Virus record (IMG/VR): IMGVR_UViG_3300025853_000641
Location: 1 to 24,144 of that record
Source: a virus
DNA length: 24,144 nt
Reading direction: 5' to 3' (one strand)
The notes below the pieces were generated by a model, which made no database searches, was not told the DNA's origin, and saw only the letters and a program-made list of their open reading frames with translations. The position numbers and the translations under genes were made by a program. Of this stretch, positions 7,163 through 14,885 are shown one piece after another. Position 1 is the stretch's first letter; every line of letters begins with the position of its first letter.

Positions 7163-9013
7163 TTAATTCACAGGTTTATAAATTGTTACTAGTTCGTCTT
7201 TACCTTTGACCTTAATTTTATCTAATTCAACTGATTTAATATTTTTCAATTGGTCGTGGGTATAAGATGAATATATTAATGGCTCAATGCCAGTTTCAGT
7301 TTTATAGTTTCTTGTAGAAGCTTCTAGTCTAGCAGCTAAGTTTACTGCGTCACCTATAACTGAATAGTCAAACCTTGTATCACTTCCCATATTACCAACA
7401 ATACAGGTGCCTGTGTTTACACCTGAACCAATGTTAATGGGTGGTAATCCTTTTTCTTTAAATATCTTTTTTAACTTCTCTGTTTCTTTAGCACACTCTA
7501 TACCTGTTTTAACAGCCATCTCTGCGTGATTAGGACAATCAATCGGTGCGTTCCAAAATGCCATGATACAATCGCCCATGTACTTATCAACACAACCACC
7601 ATTGTCAAGGACAATCTTTGTCATTCTATTTAAGTAATCATTTATTAATGCAACAAGTCCTTCGGGGTCATCATTGTTTTTATAGTATTCGGATATAGGT
7701 GTAAATCCTACAATATCCATGAATAAGAAACTCATCTCTTTTCTTTCGCCACCCAATTTTAGTTTACTAGGGTCTTTTTGTAGTATTGCAACTTGTCGTG
7801 GGTCAAGGTAAGATTCAAATTGTTTTCTTATTTGTTGTTTTAGTCTAAACTCTAAAATAAATCTATTAAATACTGCATGAAATCCTACAATAGTTAATGT
7901 AATTATAATCCAAGTACCATCAACTAACATTAATTTCTTATCAAAGAAATATTGAACACCAAGATAGGTAAAGAAATAGAAACCTAATAGTATAATACCT
8001 AACATCCAGTAAGGTAAAAATCTTGCCATTATTACTATAACACAACCTACTAAAAAGGCAACAGCTAATTCAACAATAAATGATATGTCCACCCTCTCTA
8101 TATTTGTGCCATCTATGACTGTCTGAAGTGTATTAGCAATGACAGTATAATCGTATTGTCCGCCTATCGGAGTAGCGACCACACCGCCTAATCCTTCAGC
8201 TTTGACGCCTATTATAATTGTCTTATTCTCTAAACTAATCTCGTTTGTATCTAAATCTGCCAATGATATTTCTGCATATGACTTATTCCATGTCAACCAT
8301 ATTCGAGCATTTGCGTCTGTTTTAATTGTTGCATAACCTGGTACTCTCATAGCAGTAATACCAGCCTCACTTGCTTTTACTTGATAGCTAGGGTCACCAA
8401 CTGCAACTCTAATTACTTCTATAGCAATATTAGGAAATACATCATTACCTATTTTCATAAGTAAAGGCATTCTTCTTACGACACCATCTATTTCAGGTGC
8501 GACATTTGTTGTACCTACACCAGCTGCATTATCGCCAATTTTAGGTATTGGACCTACCATACCTGGCCATTCAAATAAAAATTCTAAAGGATTACCTATT
8601 TTTGCAACACCTCTAGGATATCCGTTTTGTGTTGTTTGATGTGAACCTGTTTGTGATATTACTACAAAGTTGCCATTTAAAGTCATTGCTAATAAACCAT
8701 CACCACCCAATCTATCTTCCTCTGAAAATAAAATAGGCATGACAATAACACCAGCGCCTTGACTTCTTAATTTAATTATTGTTTCTGCTAAGACTTCTCT
8801 GTTCCATGGCCATTGACCATACTTTTCTATAGACTTTTCATCTATAGTTACAATAGCAATGTCTTGTGAGATTTCTTTTTCTTGTGATTGTAGTAAAAGG
8901 TCAAATGATTTTAACCTAAGAATTTCTTTTACTTGTGGGTCTTGTAAACCTATCCAAGTCAAGGCAAACAAGGTAACAAAAGCAAATGTCCAATGTGTAA
9001 ATAATTTCTTCAT
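7163..9013 (-). CDS. CHASE2-domain class III adenylyl cyclase
   Basis: A 616-residue membrane sensor enzyme predicted to make cAMP from ATP. An N-terminal helix (about 6-23) leads to an extracytoplasmic CHASE2 domain (about 30-305; IAIVTIDEKSIEKYGQWPWNR is typical), then three membrane helices (about 311-331, 335-356 and 364-385), and the cytoplasmic cyclase domain (about 420-616). Catalytic residues are intact: metal-binding D433 (FMDIVGFT) and D481 (YMGDCIMAF), base-contact K477, and transition-state N558 and R562 (VNLAARLE). S551 replaces the adenine-contact Asp, the Thr/Ser variant of class IIIb adenylyl cyclases, so ATP is more likely than GTP. AGGA precedes the ATG; the gene follows the PA14-curlin gene by nine bases. 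In bacteria CHASE2 cyclases often neighbour FecR genes, as here. An intact cyclase is very unusual in a phage. Confidence 0.93.
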   Translation of the reverse strand: MKKLFTHWTFAFVTLFALTWIGLQDPQVKEILRLKSFDLLLQSQEKEISQDIAIVTIDEKSIEKYGQWPWNREVLAETIIKLRSQGAGVIVMPILFSEEDRLGGDGLLAMTLNGNFVVISQTGSHQTTQNGYPRGVAKIGNPLEFLFEWPGMVGPIPKIGDNAAGVGTTNVAPEIDGVVRRMPLLMKIGNDVFPNIAIEVIRVAVGDPSYQVKASEAGITAMRVPGYATIKTDANARIWLTWNKSYAEISLADLDTNEISLENKTIIIGVKAEGLGGVVATPIGGQYDYTVIANTLQTVIDGTNIERVDISFIVELAVAFLVGCVIVIMARFLPYWMLGIILLGFYFFTYLGVQYFFDKKLMLVDGTWIIITLTIVGFHAVFNRFILEFRLKQQIRKQFESYLDPRQVAILQKDPSKLKLGGERKEMSFLFMDIVGFTPISEYYKNNDDPEGLVALINDYLNRMTKIVLDNGGCVDKYMGDCIMAFWNAPIDCPNHAEMAVKTGIECAKETEKLKKIFKEKGLPPINIGSGVNTGTCIVGNMGSDTRFDYSVIGDAVNLAARLEASTRNYKTETGIEPLIYSSYTHDQLKNIKSVELDKIKVKGKDELVTIYKPVN

Positions 9014-9022
9014 TATTCCTAT

Positions 9023-10327
9023 TTAGTTCTGTGTGACAGTTGCTGAACAACTTGCCTGTGTACAGTTTTGATATAGATAATAGTTTTGTGAGGTACTACT
9101 ATCTTGCGTCAATGTTACACTAGAAGTATTACCACTTAAATTAATTGTGGCATTGTGGTCACCACTTCCGTCTTGCGTTACATCTACATTATGACTATCA
9201 GTCAAGGTTATTTCTGCATAGTGATTGCCTGTGCCTTTTTGGTTTAAAGCCAAATTATTAGAACCATCTATGTCTATAAATGCCTTTTTATTTCCTGTTT
9301 CTGTCTGGTCTATATCAACATTATTACTATTGCCTGCTATGATAACTTCCATATAATGTTCACCAACATAGTTGATTGCTGATTGGTCTAAATCTACATT
9401 GTTTGATGAACCTGTTATATCTAGTATTGCTCTTTGGTCTTCGTTTTGTGTGACTGCCACATTGTTTGATGAACCAACAATATCTAAACCTAAAACATTA
9501 TCATTACCAATTTGGTCTAAATCTAAAGCATTATTATCACCAGTTATTACAGCTGATGAAGTTAAGTCTGTACCAATAATTAAGTTATCGTCACCGTCTT
9601 GTAATATGTTTAGTGTGTTACTATTTCCTGTTTGTGTAATATAAATTTGATTACCGTTTACGGCCTTATTTCTAGCATTATTGAAACTCGTTGTTTGTGC
9701 ATTTGTTATACCTGAGGTTGGTGTAACTTGTGTTGTTGAAAACCATGAAGTTGGTATATCTGTTTGACAAGAAGTTGAATAAGAGTTAGTCATACAGTAA
9801 TTAATATCTAAAGCGGCACCGCCACCCCATTCATACATCCATACTGTAATTTCATATTGTTGACCAGCAGTCTTTGTTAATGAACCAGTTGCGTTCCAAG
9901 TAGCAGTACCTTGTTGTTGCCAATCTTGTATAACATTTGTACCATCTATGTTCATAAACACACCATCATCAGCCGCTACACCAAAGTAAACTGTTGTCTG
10001 TTGTCCTGTTGTACCTGGCCAAGTGATATAACCTGTGATTTCTACTGCCACAGAATCACTTCTTCCACTATCTAATACCTGACCACTACCCCAATAATAT
10101 CCACTTGGACTTGATATAGTTCCTGTGCTGAGTACACTACCTAAACCGTTTGGACTGGAATTTGAACCATCTGTGTTATAACCTGCCACATTATCATAGA
10201 AAGGAAATTCTAGGCTTGGTGCATAGGTAGTTATAGCATATGTTTTATAATTTAAAACTCCTGCATTTGCTAAAGTTGTAAACAAGAAACAAATTAAAAA
10301 ACTAACGCTGATTAATATAGATTTCAT
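9023..10327 (-). CDS. Secreted PA14-like domain fused to curlin repeats
   Basis: A 434-residue exported protein. Signal peptide: residues 1-22, probable cleavage at ANA|G. Residues about 30-197 look like a PA14/GLEYA-type beta domain: VYFGVAADDGVFMNIDG and YEITVWMYEWGGGAALDI match the 'aDDG..l.idg' and late-strand patterns of that carbohydrate-binding family, with DD at 120-121 as likely calcium ligands. Residues about 226-434 are curlin-type repeats, as in NQIYITQTGNSN and NALDLDQIGNDN, that would fold into an amyloid beta-solenoid. It is thus a candidate fibre subunit or tip adhesin secreted through CsgG. AAGGAG lies just before the ATG. The gene overlaps the end of the FecR gene by 26 bases. 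Repeat assignment is firm; the PA14 assignment is good but by eye. Confidence 0.85.
   Translation of the reverse strand: MKSILISVSFLICFLFTTLANAGVLNYKTYAITTYAPSLEFPFYDNVAGYNTDGSNSSPNGLGSVLSTGTISSPSGYYWGSGQVLDSGRSDSVAVEITGYITWPGTTGQQTTVYFGVAADDGVFMNIDGTNVIQDWQQQGTATWNATGSLTKTAGQQYEITVWMYEWGGGAALDINYCMTNSYSTSCQTDIPTSWFSTTQVTPTSGITNAQTTSFNNARNKAVNGNQIYITQTGNSNTLNILQDGDDNLIIGTDLTSSAVITGDNNALDLDQIGNDNVLGLDIVGSSNNVAVTQNEDQRAILDITGSSNNVDLDQSAINYVGEHYMEVIIAGNSNNVDIDQTETGNKKAFIDIDGSNNLALNQKGTGNHYAEITLTDSHNVDVTQDGSGDHNATINLSGNTSSVTLTQDSSTSQNYYLYQNCTQASCSATVTQN
9026..9652 (-). repeat. Curlin-type repeat array within the PA14 fusion protein
   Basis: About eight degenerate repeats of roughly 20-25 residues. 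Each has two short beta strands, one ending in a Gln (x-V-x-x-x-Q) and one ending in G-S/N-S-N, with Asn at the turns: for example NVAVTQ and ILDITGSSN, NVDIDQ and AFIDIDGSN. These follow the Gln/Asn ladder logic of CsgA/CsgB repeats, but the canonical first Ser is often missing and Asp is enriched. DNA identity between repeats is low, so the array looks old rather than freshly amplified. Confidence 0.8.
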
Positions 10328-11414
10328 TATCTCCTTCTCCTAATTGATAATCTCTAATTTCTACATCACCTTGTGTGACATTTATATTATAACCATTTTC
10401 TTGGTTTAATCTTAATTCAATATTATTGTTTGATTCATCACTTCTTTTCCATACCCAATATGGAGCTTCATCTAATAATATAACACCAAACTCATCTTTA
10501 CCTGTTTTCTTTTTATCTTTACCTTTATCAAATTCGTTTCGCATTTGTAAGGCAAGTTGTTTATTTAATTGTTCTAAAATATCAACTAAAAAGTTTTGGT
10601 CTAAAAAATCTATTTCTAAAGCTGTATTTGCCTCGTCTTCTTCCGTTTCTAATAAGTCAACTTCTAAATCATCAAACTTTAAAAAGTCTATATCTAAAGC
10701 GTTAGCAATTACTTTTAATTTTGACTCTTGTTCAATTGCGTCTTCTAGTTTAGCAGGTTTTTGTACAATTAATAAGTTGTTAATTAAACTTTCATCTAAA
10801 TCCAATATAACTGGTTTTAAAGGATTACTTTCAGGTGTATCAACTTGTGTGGCCTGAAATGCCTGATTTAATATAACTTGGCCTGCGTCACTCTCAACTG
10901 ATATTTCTCCAACAAAACAATATCCATTTGTATCACAACTTGGTAATAATATAATTGTTGATGAACCTAACTCATCAATAGTCATGGCAAAATCTGTACC
11001 TCTAACAGATACAGTTGCTGTTGGTGTTTTTATTGAAATGTTTTGTGCTGAATTTTTGGCAATTTGACCACTAGCATATCTTACAGTACCTAGTGTTGCC
11101 TTTAATGAAAGTTTACCTGTCTTTTGATTTGGGTCGTAAACAAAATCATCAATGATAAGTTTAGAGTGCTGTGTAATGTCAACTCTGGTTTCATCCAGAA
11201 ATTCTATAGCAACTTGACCCTTACCTGTTTTTACCGTGTCGTAAGAGAAGATGTCAAGGTCTTTTTCAACTTTGACACCTCTCTCACCATCTTTTCTGTC
11301 TATTATAGAGTTACCTTTACTTAAAGTAACATCACCAATAGATGTATTACTTCTTGCTGGTAAAGTCGTAAGGATTAAGGCTAAGCATAAAATTATAAAA
11401 TTTATAACTTGCAT
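10302..11414 (-). CDS. Exported FecR-domain protein with curlin-like C-terminus
   Basis: A 370-residue exported protein with an N-terminal signal peptide (about 1-22; MQVINFIILCLALILTTLPA). Residues about 45-150 are a FecR domain: DTVKTGKGQVAIEFLDETRV, then GTVRYASGQIAK and PTATVSVRGTDFAM are the family's hallmark strands. A long acidic, leucine-rich linker follows (about 195-300). The last 40 residues (NNIELRLNQENGYNINVTQ and NEIYINQR) resemble one or two curlin repeat units, so the protein may cap or join the amyloid. In bacteria, exported FecR-domain proteins often neighbour CHASE2 cyclases, one of which is encoded two genes downstream. It may sense envelope state or fibre assembly; this is inference. 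Its Shine-Dalgarno site is weak (AGGA, about 11 bases from ATG). Confidence 0.88.
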   Translation of the reverse strand: MQVINFIILCLALILTTLPARSNTSIGDVTLSKGNSIIDRKDGERGVKVEKDLDIFSYDTVKTGKGQVAIEFLDETRVDITQHSKLIIDDFVYDPNQKTGKLSLKATLGTVRYASGQIAKNSAQNISIKTPTATVSVRGTDFAMTIDELGSSTIILLPSCDTNGYCFVGEISVESDAGQVILNQAFQATQVDTPESNPLKPVILDLDESLINNLLIVQKPAKLEDAIEQESKLKVIANALDIDFLKFDDLEVDLLETEEDEANTALEIDFLDQNFLVDILEQLNKQLALQMRNEFDKGKDKKKTGKDEFGVILLDEAPYWVWKRSDESNNNIELRLNQENGYNINVTQGDVEIRDYQLGEGDNEIYINQR

Positions 11415-11450
11415 ATATTATTAATCCTGTTAATAGTAAAAAACTTATCA

Positions 11451-12140
11451 TTAGTCCCTCTGTATAATGTCAATGTCAGCGTTGTCGCCACTTGTTGTTA
11501 AGTTAATTAAGTTATCATTGATACCTGATTGTGTAATATCAACATCAGCTGTACCACCTGTATGAGTATGTACCAATGTATGACCATTTACATCACCATT
11601 ACCATCTATGTCAATTAAGTAATTATTAGTATCACCGTTTACTGTGATTGTTAATACAGCGCTTGTGCCGTCAATAGTAGCAGCTACTGTATTTGAATCA
11701 GAGCCTGTGTTACCGACAATATCAACATCAGCATTTGAAGCGTCTGAAGTTTCGCCAATATCTAAATCAATATCGTTTGAGTTACCTGTAAAGTTAACTA
11801 CAGCATTGACAGTTCCACATGATGAGTTGCCGTTTGTACTGTCACAATTTAAATCAACATCATTCGAATCACCTTGTAGGTTAATAACACCTGTATATGT
11901 CGCACCATTAATTTGATAAGTGATAACATTCGAATTACCAACTTGGTCTATATTCAAATTAGTTGTTGCGCCAGTTGAGGCAGATGATGTTGTACTATTA
12001 CCGATTGTATTGTTTTCACCGTCTTGTAAAATATCTAAAGTTAAACTTGCACCAGATTGAGTAACATAAATGTCATTCGCCAATATTGGAGAGGTAATCA
12101 TAAACATAACAAACATAACGAAGCTTATTATTGTTTTCAT
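11451..12140 (-). CDS. Curlin-repeat amyloid subunit (CsgA/CsgB-like)
   Basis: A 229-residue exported protein with a signal peptide (about 1-21; cleavage near ILA|N). The mature part begins at once with curlin repeats (NDIYVTQSGASLTLDILQDGENN) and is rich in Asn, Asp, Ser, Thr and Gly throughout. Later repeats (NLNIDQVGNSN, VDITQSGINDN, ADIDIIQRD) keep the Gln/Asn ladder, while the middle (about 75-165) has lost most Gln and is Asp-rich. Two Cys near residues 99 and 107 may form a disulfide. With no other domain it is the simplest candidate for the main fibre subunit. It follows csgG by 20 bases and has an AGGAGG Shine-Dalgarno site about 10 bases before ATG. Whether it plays the CsgA or CsgB role cannot be told. 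Confidence 0.85.
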   Translation of the reverse strand: MKTIISFVMFVMFMITSPILANDIYVTQSGASLTLDILQDGENNTIGNSTTSSASTGATTNLNIDQVGNSNVITYQINGATYTGVINLQGDSNDVDLNCDSTNGNSSCGTVNAVVNFTGNSNDIDLDIGETSDASNADVDIVGNTGSDSNTVAATIDGTSAVLTITVNGDTNNYLIDIDGNGDVNGHTLVHTHTGGTADVDITQSGINDNLINLTTSGDNADIDIIQRD

Positions 12141-12160
12141 AGTTTCTTATCCTCCTGGTT

Positions 12161-13009
12161 CTAGCCTCTTATAGCGTTGCTATGAACCTTTGGTATTTCT
12201 ATTTCCTTCTCTTTATATTTCCAAAAACCTTGTTTCTCACCTGATTGTATCAGTTGTAAAACTGCAAACTCGATAGCAGTCCGTATTGCATAGTTAACAG
12301 GTTCGTTTACGGCCACGCCTGTTTCTAATTCTAACGCTTTTGTACCCATGTCTAAAAACCTGAATACATCTCCACCACTAGAATGACTAGCAATGGTTTT
12401 AGTTACATTAGTTGTCAATAATATTTCACCAGTTTGTACTGATACAATTCTCATTGATACAGTTACCTGGTCTACTCTATATTGCTCACTCAAACCTATG
12501 CCAAAATATCTTGCACCTTGACCACCTGATTGTGTGTTACTATCGTAACCTACAATACCACCTTCAATTATCAAGCCTGCAAATAACATTGGCTTTAAAA
12601 CTTGTTTTATTTCTTGTTCACCATCATATAAATCTCTTGTACTTCTAATCAATTGTCTTTCTTTGACAAGATTGTCTAAACCATTTCTTTCGACAACTTG
12701 AAACCATGTACCATTTGATACAGATTTCAAAGCATTAATTACAAATACATCACTACCTTGTGTTACGGCAGTTGATAGTTGAGAAAACTTTGTACTTGGT
12801 TTTCTCTGACCTGTTAAGTCTGTAAACCGATAGACAGCAATACTAATTTGTGGTTGGTCTAACTCCGGTAAATCTTTTAATAATTCATGCGTAGGAGTAC
12901 CTTCTACATAAGGCATACTACCTTTAAAAGTGCTAGTGTTTTTCGAAGTTGTAGAGGCACAACTTGACAACACTATTCCCATAATTATTACCAACAATGC
13001 TTTTAGCAT
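12161..13009 (-). CDS. csgG: Curli secretion pore lipoprotein CsgG
   Basis: A 282-residue outer-membrane lipoprotein that forms the nonameric curli export channel. Lipobox LSSC places the lipidated Cys at residue 17. The match to E. coli CsgG runs end to end: ISIAVYRFTDLTGQRKP, WFQVVERNGLDNLVKERQ, IIEGGIVGYDSN, QGARYFGIG, QYRVDQVTVSMRIVSVQTGEIL, VFRFLD, NEPVNYAIRTAIEF and GFWKYK. Length is as in E. coli (277). The loop that forms the pore constriction (residues 72-78, between KP and STAV) differs: E. coli has Y51, N55 and F56 in six residues, while here there are seven (STKFSQL), so the gate is altered. AGGAG with a TAATG overlap couples it to the small membrane protein upstream; csgF is one gene further upstream. 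Confidence 0.96.
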   Translation of the reverse strand: MLKALLVIIMGIVLSSCASTTSKNTSTFKGSMPYVEGTPTHELLKDLPELDQPQISIAVYRFTDLTGQRKPSTKFSQLSTAVTQGSDVFVINALKSVSNGTWFQVVERNGLDNLVKERQLIRSTRDLYDGEQEIKQVLKPMLFAGLIIEGGIVGYDSNTQSGGQGARYFGIGLSEQYRVDQVTVSMRIVSVQTGEILLTTNVTKTIASHSSGGDVFRFLDMGTKALELETGVAVNEPVNYAIRTAIEFAVLQLIQSGEKQGFWKYKEKEIEIPKVHSNAIRG

Positions 13010-13290
13010 TAATCTCTCCTTGCGTCTTCTTTACCATCAGCTCTACTAATTCTTTCTTCATCTTGCCTTAAATTTAAGGCATCTGAAATCTGTATGTCTA
13101 ATTTAATCATATCATTATTCATATTCTTAACTCTATTCTCTAATCCCATAATGATACCGTGCATACCAGAAACTTGGCCTACGACAGATTCTAAAATGTA
13201 TTTTATAATTAAGAAGATGAAAAAACCCATAACAACCGAAGCGGCTACGGGCAATCCAAATTTAACTAGTATATCAAAAAATAATTCCAT
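13009..13290 (-). CDS. One-helix membrane protein with coiled coil, between csgF and csgG
   Basis: A 93-residue protein with an N-terminal membrane helix (about residues 11-34 after MELFFDILVKFG) and a C-terminal amphipathic coiled coil ending in a charged tail. It is a paralogue of the protein at 13857-14111: both share the plan M-short-DIL-x-(K/R)-(F/Y)-G, helix, then a G-M-x-G-(I/V)-(I/L)-x-G-L pattern and an ND-x-I-x-L segment. I chose the ATG at 13290 because it aligns with that paralogue; an upstream in-frame TTG would overlap csgF. The csgF stop and this ATG are one base apart. Architecture resembles small phage holins of the BhlA/UviB type. A pore partner of the curli channel or a holin are both possible. 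Confidence 0.75.
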   Translation of the reverse strand: MELFFDILVKFGLPVAASVVMGFFIFLIIKYILESVVGQVSGMHGIIMGLENRVKNMNNDMIKLDIQISDALNLRQDEERISRADGKEDARRD

Positions 13291-13291
13291 A

Positions 13292-13780
13292 CTAGAATAC
13301 AAAATCTCCTATTGGCACACTCATACTTGTAACTGTGCCATCTTCAGCCGTAATGGTTAATGTAATAATCTCTGTTGTGGTATCTTTGACCCAATATATG
13401 GTCGCACCCTCAATCTCTGAGGTACCACTTGTTGGACAAGTTGTTGTACTTGAATCACAACTTGTACCAAACATATTGTCAACCAGCTGTTTAGACAGGT
13501 TGGCATAAATTCTACTTTCCACATTAGCAATAAACTTGTTAATTGTGGTGTTTTTTTCTGCTCTTTCAGCGGCCGCAGCTGCCGATTTAGCGTCATCTAT
13601 ATTTTTCTGTTTTCTTTGTTCTTGTAACTGGTCGACAGAAAGCACATGGTTTGAATAACCGTCACCACTAAAGGCTGGGTTTTTAAAGCCATGTACCAGT
13701 TCGGATGCTAGTATTTTTGTATTCAGGAGAGTTAATGTAAGTGCCACTACTAACATCATTGTTTTAAATGATGTTTTCAT
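13292..13780 (-). CDS. csgF: Curli assembly factor CsgF
   Basis: A 162-residue exported protein with a signal peptide ending about residue 26 (KILAS). The mature N-terminus has LVHGFKNPAF; the FxNPxF core (F32-F37) matches the FRNPNF of E. coli CsgF, the segment that inserts in the CsgG channel and forms a second constriction. An Ala/Lys-rich helix (about 55-85) follows, then a region with two Cys (CDSSTTTC) and a C-terminal beta part ending IPIGDFVF, like the ISVSG...DF end of CsgF. In E. coli CsgF holds the nucleator on the cell surface at the pore. The gene leads the curli block, with TATAAATA just before its ATG and no Shine-Dalgarno site visible. It is longer than E. coli CsgF (138) mainly in the linker. 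Confidence 0.85.
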   Translation of the reverse strand: MKTSFKTMMLVVALTLTLLNTKILASELVHGFKNPAFSGDGYSNHVLSVDQLQEQRKQKNIDDAKSAAAAAERAEKNTTINKFIANVESRIYANLSKQLVDNMFGTSCDSSTTTCPTSGTSEIEGATIYWVKDTTTEIITLTITAEDGTVTSMSVPIGDFVF

Positions 13781-13785
13781 ACTAC

Positions 13786-13793
13786 TATTTATA
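13786..13793 (-). promoter_or_regulatory. T4-type late promoter octamer upstream of csgF
   Basis: TATAAATA on the minus strand is an exact match to the T4 late promoter box recognised by the gp55 sigma factor. It ends five bases before the csgF ATG, so a transcript starting at the usual distance would be leaderless or nearly so. It lies directly after a hairpin and at the boundary between lysis genes and the curli block. In this AT-rich genome chance occurrence is a real possibility. Confidence 0.5.
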
Positions 13794-13856: not shown

Positions 13857-14111
13857 TTACTTTTTTGACTTTGTTCTCTTTTCGTTCTCACGCACGGTCA
13901 ATATGGTGTTTAACTTTGAGCGTAAACGAATTAAGTCATTGTCCAGCATACGAATTCTGTCTATGAGACCAATTAGCACACCATTCATTTCACCTAATTT
14001 TACTTTAATCTGTGTGGTAATATATATGTAAATAAAATAAACAAACCAACCTAGACCTATAGCGGCCAATGTTGCAAATCCATATCTGTTTAAAATATCA
14101 ACAATATCCAT
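13857..14111 (-). CDS. One-helix membrane protein with coiled coil, holin-like
   Basis: An 84-residue protein with an N-terminal membrane helix (about 11-33, GFATLAAIGLGWFVYFIYIYI), then an amphipathic coiled coil (LGEMNGVLIGLIDRIRMLDNDLIRL) and a Lys-rich tail. It is a paralogue of the protein at 13009-13290 and the two flank csgF. Its ATG overlaps the stop of the outer spanin gene (TAATG) with AAAGAG just upstream, so it is the last gene of the lysis block. The size and plan fit BhlA/UviB-like phage holins. With another holin-like protein encoded at 14890-15048, this one could be the holin, an antiholin, or a partner of the curli pore. Confidence 0.72.
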   Translation of the reverse strand: MDIVDILNRYGFATLAAIGLGWFVYFIYIYITTQIKVKLGEMNGVLIGLIDRIRMLDNDLIRLRSKLNTILTVRENEKRTKSKK

Positions 14112-14491
14112 TACTCTTTAGTTTCTTCTTCGCTCTCATAATATTCTTTATACTTGTCTAATAAAGCATTAGTTTCTACTAATTTATTTCTAATCTGAGC
14201 AAAGTTCTTTGCTAATAGTTCAAAGTCTTTATCTGTTAATCCCCATAATACCGGGTCAATACCATCAGCCTCTAATTTAGCAAACACTTCAGCTGCATTT
14301 TCACTGGTAATAATATGCCAATGAATTTGTTCCATTTGTAATGGAGTTGGTTTTTCTAAATTAAGTTTAGCTCTAGGTACTTCTTCTTTAAATATACTTA
14401 ACTCTTTTACTCCAGCACAACTAGTAAGGAATATAGTTAGGGTTAGCAATAGAAGGACACTCTGTATTGATTTCAGACTTCTTCGTAGCAT
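14111..14491 (-). CDS. Outer-membrane spanin-like lipoprotein (Rz1-like)
   Basis: A 126-residue lipoprotein with signal TIFLTSCAG; the lipobox LTSC places the lipidated Cys at residue 25. The mature part is mainly helical with conserved-looking PTPLQMEQIHWHIITSENAAEVF and a helix toward the C-terminus. The ATG lies inside the 3' end of the upstream Rz-like gene (71-base overlap in another frame), the classical arrangement of overlapping inner and outer spanin genes. Together they would span the periplasm and fuse the two membranes at lysis, so the host is Gram-negative. It is larger than lambda Rz1 and not proline-rich, so the outer spanin call rests on lipobox plus gene overlap. Confidence 0.78.
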   Translation of the reverse strand: MLRRSLKSIQSVLLLLTLTIFLTSCAGVKELSIFKEEVPRAKLNLEKPTPLQMEQIHWHIITSENAAEVFAKLEADGIDPVLWGLTDKDFELLAKNFAQIRNKLVETNALLDKYKEYYESEEETKE

Positions 14492-14885
14492 TAATCTCTT
14501 TCTCCGTCAATGGTGAACCACTTGCGATTTCTATACATCTGTTAGCCTTATCACTAGCAGAGTTAGTAATTCTTTCAATTGTTTTTGTTTTTTCAATTGC
14601 AAGTAAACCAACATCTCTGTTTTTCTTATTAAATCGTTTATCTAAATCGGCAAAATCTGTTTTTAGTTTGCCAATTAGTTCGTTCATTTCTTTGTTAGCC
14701 ACAAGTATGGCCTCAAAATCTTTTTTTTGATTTTCAATTAGTGTTTTTTGGTCAGCGATTGCTGATTCCATTTTGATAGCGTTTGCTTTTAAAATTGCAT
14801 TATCTTTTTGCAACTTCAAAACATAGAAGCCACCGCCGGCTAAGGCGGTGACTATAAGTCCTATAAAAAATAATCTAATTCCCAT
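14421..14885 (-). CDS. Inner-membrane spanin-like protein (Rz-like)
   Basis: A 154-residue protein with one N-terminal membrane helix (about 4-23) followed by a long periplasmic coiled coil (about 25-75) and a C-terminal region with two Cys (NRCIEIASG and NTECPSI). This is the plan of i-spanins: type II membrane protein, coiled-coil shaft and a C-terminal part that meets the outer-membrane lipoprotein. The gene starts four bases after the holin-like gene with AAGGA as ribosome site, and the lipoprotein gene begins inside its 3' end. The family assignment is by architecture and context. Confidence 0.8.
   Translation of the reverse strand: MGIRLFFIGLIVTALAGGGFYVLKLQKDNAILKANAIKMESAIADQKTLIENQKKDFEAILVANKEMNELIGKLKTDFADLDKRFNKKNRDVGLLAIEKTKTIERITNSASDKANRCIEIASGSPLTEKEINATKKSEINTECPSIANPNYIPY

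Follow-up and report, generated by a model that had tools for sequence, protein, structure and literature searches.

What a phage would gain from exporting curlin proteins is the question raised by a gene cluster in IMG/VR record IMGVR_UViG_3300025853_000641, a viral sequence of 24,144 nucleotides (positions 1 to 24,144, hereafter the window). A preliminary description of this sequence had recognized a compact curli, or type VIII secretion, system (T8SS) in a T4-like phage, and this was supported by the gene matches and by the phage primase, whose closest counterparts belong to Pelagibacter phage Mosig (67%) and then HTVC008M (50%), both T4-like Kyanoviridae. On account of these nearest primases, the host is probably SAR11-like. 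The module encodes a curlin whose head is exchanged between phages, and from its sequence we see an even chance that it serves to build an amyloid with a lectin-type tip, secreted late, by which infected cells or debris would adhere.

An exchangeable head on a conserved curlin shaft

The core parts of type VIII secretion, namely a pore, a plug and two exported curlins, are present (Table 1). The scores of CsgF and CsgG exceed the Pfam cut-offs, and the motifs described as intact were found to be so: CsgG keeps the lipobox LSSC, in which Cys17 is invariant across 19 diverse phage homologues, and CsgF carries the N-terminal FxNPxF motif as GFKNPAF. Both repeat proteins have signal peptides by sequence, as had been stated. 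Profile searches recovered CsgG, CsgF and the second curlin but not curlin 1, which has no Pfam match alone and is homologous to the second curlin (37% identity, E = 8e-16). The ratio of nonsynonymous to synonymous substitution rates (dN/dS) was 0.01–0.18 for the module genes measured and 0.08–0.18 for csgF, csgG and the curlins, the value for the curlin shaft coming from a single pair; this purifying selection indicates that the genes are used. The earlier proposal that the system could secrete amyloid therefore stands as a prediction from gene content and selection.

In the second curlin, a conserved shaft of curlin repeats bears an N-terminal head that can be swapped. In a profile search against the PDB, the head matched PA14 structures (6qe7, 6e-13; RTX-adhesin 6m8m, 2e-4). 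For an AlphaFold2 model (mean predicted local distance difference test score 66, predicted template modelling score 0.48), Foldseek placed the sugar-binding PA14 domain of Marinomonas MpAFP (probability 1.0, E = 3e-4 to 8e-4) and the Flo lectins of yeast at the top; the head and the MpAFP domain aligned with a VIA Z of ~9 over ~130 residues. Matches of the model to curli-repeat and pectate-lyase/SufB structures were put down to solenoid shape in general and not counted as homology. The DDG motif is invariant in 10/10 PA14 heads, so the Pfam match, the motif and the MpAFP fold match together indicate a PA14 fold with an Asp-Asp calcium site, and the head is a PA14 domain of the sugar-binding type. 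It shares this fold and the Asp-Asp motif with the Marinomonas ice-binding adhesin MpAFP and the yeast Flo/Epa lectins but, unlike them, it is fused to a curlin solenoid.

Comparison with relatives (the best 80 of 209 csgG candidates in IMG/VR) revealed the exchange. Heads were less than 30% identical in 22 of the 46 pairs whose shafts were more than 80% identical, with the boundary near residues 200–225, and the converse swap was also seen, loci L045 and L068 having heads 91% and shafts 39% identical. The module of HTVC008M (gp011-gp019) has the same genes and order as the window; its operon proteins are 65–73% identical to those of the window, yet the head is 88% and the shaft 87% identical. 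The relatives carry PA14 heads, heads of a second globular type that falls into two related groups, or no head; headless second curlins have 111–121 aa, or ~320–340 aa in L079 and phage Melnitz. The profile of the second head type gave no PDB match, and one member had a ThuA match below threshold. As read from these sequences, the exchanges form the pattern that adhesin or receptor-binding tips show. At L051:10626-11880, the open reading frame of the head-shaft curlin is broken (257 + 82 aa); it is intact in the near relative L052.

Table 1. Features of the curli module and its surroundings in the window
Feature	Coordinates	Strand	Evidence or remark
Head-shaft (second) curlin: signal peptide, PA14 head, linker, curlin solenoid	9023..10327	-	PF07012 5e-5, PF07691 8e-9
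PA14 head, residues 23-200, exchangeable part	9728..10261	-	DDG = residues 120-122
Curlin shaft, residues 226-434, regular strand-pair repeats, conserved part	9026..9652	-	curlin repeats
Curlin-repeat protein 1 (CsgA/B-like), signal peptide	11451..12140	-	homology to second curlin
CsgG outer-membrane lipoprotein pore	12161..13009	-	PF03783 1e-51, residues 49-265; PDB CsgG 5e-64
CsgF, plug/assembly factor, signal peptide	13292..13780	-	PF10614 5e-13; phrog_35372
TATAAATA, T4-type late promoter	13786..13793	-	exact match, 13 nt ahead of csgF ATG (-13 to -6)
Exported FecR-domain protein	10302..11414	-	PF04773 6.5e-10
CHASE2 sensor + class III nucleotide cyclase	7163..9013	-	PF05226 1e-41, PF00211 4e-17
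TM-a, 93-aa single-transmembrane coiled-coil protein	13009..13290	-	phrog_18771; between csgF and csgG
TM-b, 84-aa single-transmembrane coiled-coil protein, TM-a paralogue	13857..14111	-	phrog_18771; probably the 'histidine kinase' of Wittmers et al. 2022
Rz/Rz1-like spanin pair	14111..14885	-	phrog_739/812; lysis genes beside the module, not members

A late promoter and possible functions

Timing of expression was approached through the promoter. Of 82 loci, 60 have NATAAATA in the interval -40..-6 relative to csgF (53 of them exactly at -13), against an expectation of 0.011 per locus; the 82 loci are related, so the 60 occurrences are not independent events. In HTVC008M (L082/L183), 7 of 80 genes have NATAAATA at a distance of exactly 13 nt ahead of their ATG; the majority are structural, and those for the tape measure, end protector and baseplate are among them. 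As the same T4-type late promoter precedes csgF and these structural genes, the operon looks like a late unit. A scan for sigma-70 promoters performed no better than shuffled sequence. The T4 late promoter TATAAATA is centred at -10, so that with the motif at -13 the transcript would start at or next to the csgF AUG as a leaderless late mRNA; leaderless late mRNAs are likewise predicted for the T4-like HTVC008M.

The mechanism that we favour may run as follows. CsgG-CsgF would assemble in the host outer membrane late in infection and secrete curlin 1 as amyloid; the head-shaft curlin would enter the fibre through its repeats and display the sugar-binding head, through which the infected cell, or what is left of it along with the progeny, would become attached to nearby cells or particles. 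Head exchange between phages would then retarget the adhesin. SAR11 hosts are reported to have no curli genes (PMC9599517), and the phage would therefore equip the most abundant bacteria of the ocean with a surface structure new to them. For marine T4-like phages at large we put forward more tentatively, at somewhat under even chances, a retargetable amyloid adhesin whose heads (PA14, second globular type or none) are recombined onto a conserved curlin shaft, secreted late through CsgG-CsgF and monitored by a FecR-CHASE2 cAMP relay. With the late promoter, the lectin-like head that is exchanged and the corrected labels given below, the hypotheses narrow to late adhesion, and gp018 of the cultured phage HTVC008M, the protein with the 88% identical head, is directly testable.

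The same promoter class and spacing as in tail and baseplate genes, together with a head exchange resembling receptor-binding diversification, would also suit fibres on virions or released debris, acting as accessory adhesins of free phages rather than on living infected cells. We consider this unlikely, since Sec signal peptides and an outer-membrane pore would put the fibre outside the cell, while virions assemble in the cytoplasm and would meet it only after lysis. A fibre coat barring superinfection by competing phages has been proposed, with the argument that curli can shield cells from phages (PMC9599517), and glycan-binding heads could mask receptors; late expression, however, would leave most of the infection unprotected, and we hold this reading to be a little less likely again.

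Several points weigh against late adhesion. The sugar binding of the head is argued from fold and motif only, and the adhesion model as a whole from sequence and predicted structure. The head would have to remain unfolded for passage through the pore, and it is not essential, because some phages have a short headless second curlin. The CsgG constriction is unlike that of E. coli, with FSQLS replacing the Y51/N55/F56 stretch, and no known N22-type secretion signal was detected in the curlins. The C-terminus of the FecR-domain protein (ending ...GxxNEIxIxQ) was considered as a further curlin repeat, which was supported neither by BLASTP nor by profile-profile comparison. No clumping was seen in Melnitz-infected cultures (PMC9004378), which counts against cell aggregation in general, though the second curlin of Melnitz lacks a PA14 head. 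Finally, the CsgE gate is missing: as the preliminary description had noted, CsgE, CsgC and CsgD had no match among the 20 window proteins scanned. T8SS does not depend on CsgE, which E. coli has but which is often lacking in other systems, and the published phage modules are without it. A pore lacking this gate may be open, in keeping with the proposal that CsgG takes up large nutrients or cofactors during infection (PMC7029224, PMC9599517); this would leave CsgF, the curlins, the heads and the late timing unexplained, and we regard it as very improbable.

Membrane pair, FecR-domain protein and cyclase

The two small membrane proteins of the module, TM-a and TM-b, belong to a pair of paralogues of 80–115 aa with one transmembrane (TM) helix and a coiled coil. 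Two motifs are near-invariant, LDNRxxTMNNDxIKLD...DGKxDARRD and LIDRIRMLDNDLIRLR, with DGKxDARRD being C-terminal in TM-a. The ATG at 13290 is the likely start of TM-a, chosen from homologues; the listed TTG at 13302 would give 97 aa. The pair is found in all informative module loci and, among 50,697 phage records, in exactly the 6 with csgF-csgG; in the 11 TM loci without csg genes, the TM gene always lies near a contig end. The position of the two genes varies: in the lineage of the window, one of them has been relocated from its place upstream of csgF to the csgF-csgG interval, and in L045, L054, L059 and L079 both are found at other nearby sites, on the opposite strand or after the cyclase gene. 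The only further phage record with csgG is L084 (OR851715), a 1.5-kb 'Salmonella phage' contig that is probably bacterial carry-over.

Pelagiphage studies label one component of the module a histidine kinase and FecR iron-dependent (PMC7029224, PMC9599517). A comparison of 26 members of the TM pair with Pfam gave no kinase family, neither HisKA nor HATPase_c. The published 'histidine kinase' ahead of csgF, sometimes two, was described as short and excluded from phylogeny (PMC9599517); judging by position, number and shortness, it is probably the TM pair and not a kinase. The two proteins may be inner-membrane accessories peculiar to the module, which perhaps link that membrane with the pore and so substitute for CsgE.

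Their holin-like size bears on another proposal, made for methylophage Melnitz (PMC9004378), in which the module was read as a pore and curlin genes were stated to be absent: CsgG-CsgF would be a repurposed lysis-timing pore, pinholin- or secretin-like, with the curlins as leftovers or regulators. The late promoter and the spanins adjoining the module in the window are in line with this. However, CsgG sits in the outer membrane, and its opening would leave the inner-membrane potential uncollapsed; the spanins are not next to the module in HTVC008M; and the curlins with their heads show conservation, purifying selection and diversification through head exchange. Melnitz itself has all module genes at 50–55% identity, including two curlins annotated as curlin repeat proteins (gp101, gp103), contrary to the premise of their absence. 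With exported substrates and exchangeable lectin-like heads, a role in egress becomes less likely, and we judge the lysis pore improbable. No holin family was hit at E<=1 by the TM pair, which resembles the BhlA/UviB type in general shape only; as general phage lysis genes the pair was rejected, being found only alongside csgF-csgG.

The FecR-domain protein starts with a signal peptide, followed by the FecR domain from residue 59 and no further Pfam domain. Neither a cytoplasmic N-terminal anti-sigma region nor a TM helix was found before the FecR domain, and the label of an iron-dependent regulator is unsupported because the protein is exported and without this region. An AlphaFold model from 16 sequences had a pLDDT of 35 and was not used. 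The cyclase keeps, by sequence, the catalytic and ATP-specificity residues, comprising two metal-binding Asp (D433, D481), the Lys/Asp purine pair (K477, D549) and the Asn/Arg transition-state pair (N558, R562); D433, D481, K477 and R562 are invariant in 28 homologues, and D549 and N558 are rarely substituted. Together, the FecR-domain protein and the cyclase could be a signalling pair of the envelope, supplied by the phage, which would monitor the periplasm and produce cAMP. FecR adjoins CHASE2 in a bacterial biofilm-linked operon as well, where the partner is a CHASE2 kinase (PMC5192318). At L077:5739-6482, a SoxY-SoxZ fusion (sulfur carrier) is inserted between the FecR-domain protein and the head-shaft curlin, and at L039:5562-8648 and L065:12147-15233 a 1028-aa open reading frame without Pfam match lies between the head-shaft curlin and the cyclase.

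Module layout, published counterparts and distribution

The curli block occupies the minus strand from 7163 to 13780 in the order csgF, TM gene, csgG, curlin 1, FecR-domain gene, head-shaft curlin and CHASE2-cyclase. The previously given span of 9023–13780 therefore covers only part of the unit; the late promoter, TM-a, the FecR-domain protein, the PA14 head and the cyclase had gone unnoticed. The csg and curlin genes do lie on one strand, but their supposed adjacency is interrupted by TM-a between csgF and csgG and by the FecR-domain gene between the curlins. Coupling is partial: csgF and TM-a are 1 nt apart, TM-a and csgG overlap by ATGA, csgG and curlin 1 are separated by 20 nt, curlin 1 and the FecR-domain gene by 36 nt, the latter and the second curlin overlap by 26 nt, and 9 nt precede the cyclase gene. 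The placement between lysis and replication genes was confirmed, with spanin genes upstream and primase and ribonucleotide reductase genes downstream. A chimeric contig, which had been named as a finding that would refute the observation, was ruled out by an identical module on the independent contig L002, ~80 related viral loci and the isolate HTVC008M, and the GC content is flat across the module boundaries.

As the preliminary description had suspected, gene presence is not new, because phage T8SS modules of like composition have been published (PMC7029224, PMC9599517, PMC9004378). csgF and csgG were reported in pelagimyophages in 2020 (PMC7029224), and Wittmers et al. (2022; PMC9599517) described complete modules of podo- and myophages, comprising curlins, FecR, cyclase and 'histidine kinase', an alphaproteobacterial origin of the modules and environmental transcripts of pelagiphage T8SS genes. 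The window has the gene order of their pelagiphage T8SS (csgF-csgG-curlin-FecR-curlin-cyclase) in a SAR11-type phage; unlike HTVC008M, it has one TM gene between csgF and csgG and spanins adjoining the module. What is added here is the exchangeable PA14 head, the late promoter, the TM pair that is probably behind the 'histidine kinase' label and a FecR protein without an anti-sigma part; the pelagiphage T8SS literature mentions neither a PA14 head (PA14: 0 occurrences) nor head exchange.

The module shares CsgG, CsgF and curlin repeats with bacterial curli operons (E. coli csg; alphaproteobacterial csgF-csgG-curlin) and differs from them in missing CsgE, CsgC and CsgD. Five alphaproteobacterial operons on long contigs, in which curlins accompany csgF-csgG or csgG, were searched over ~9 kb with phage-built profiles, by which divergent versions could be missed; neither the TM pair nor a FecR gene of the phage type nor a CHASE2 gene turned up.

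Synteny in viral genomes was borne out on ~80 other viral contigs, across which the order TM-TM-csgF-csgG-curlin-FecR-head-curlin-cyclase is conserved, and the module also occurs in two isolated phages, HTVC008M and Melnitz. The curli module is accessory: in Mosig, the nearest isolate by primase, the whole module is absent in the region examined. The slot beside the Mosig (EXVC030M) primase, L184:26717-31462, holds two unrelated proteins with signal peptides (611 aa and 257 aa) along with a holin of the gene-transfer-agent type with three TM helices, and may represent a different cassette for export. Rhodobacteraceae Water_Bin34, the genome of L086, contains four csgF-csgG modules of the phage type, each accompanied by a TM pair (L165, L179, L180, L181), which are probably mis-binned phage contigs.

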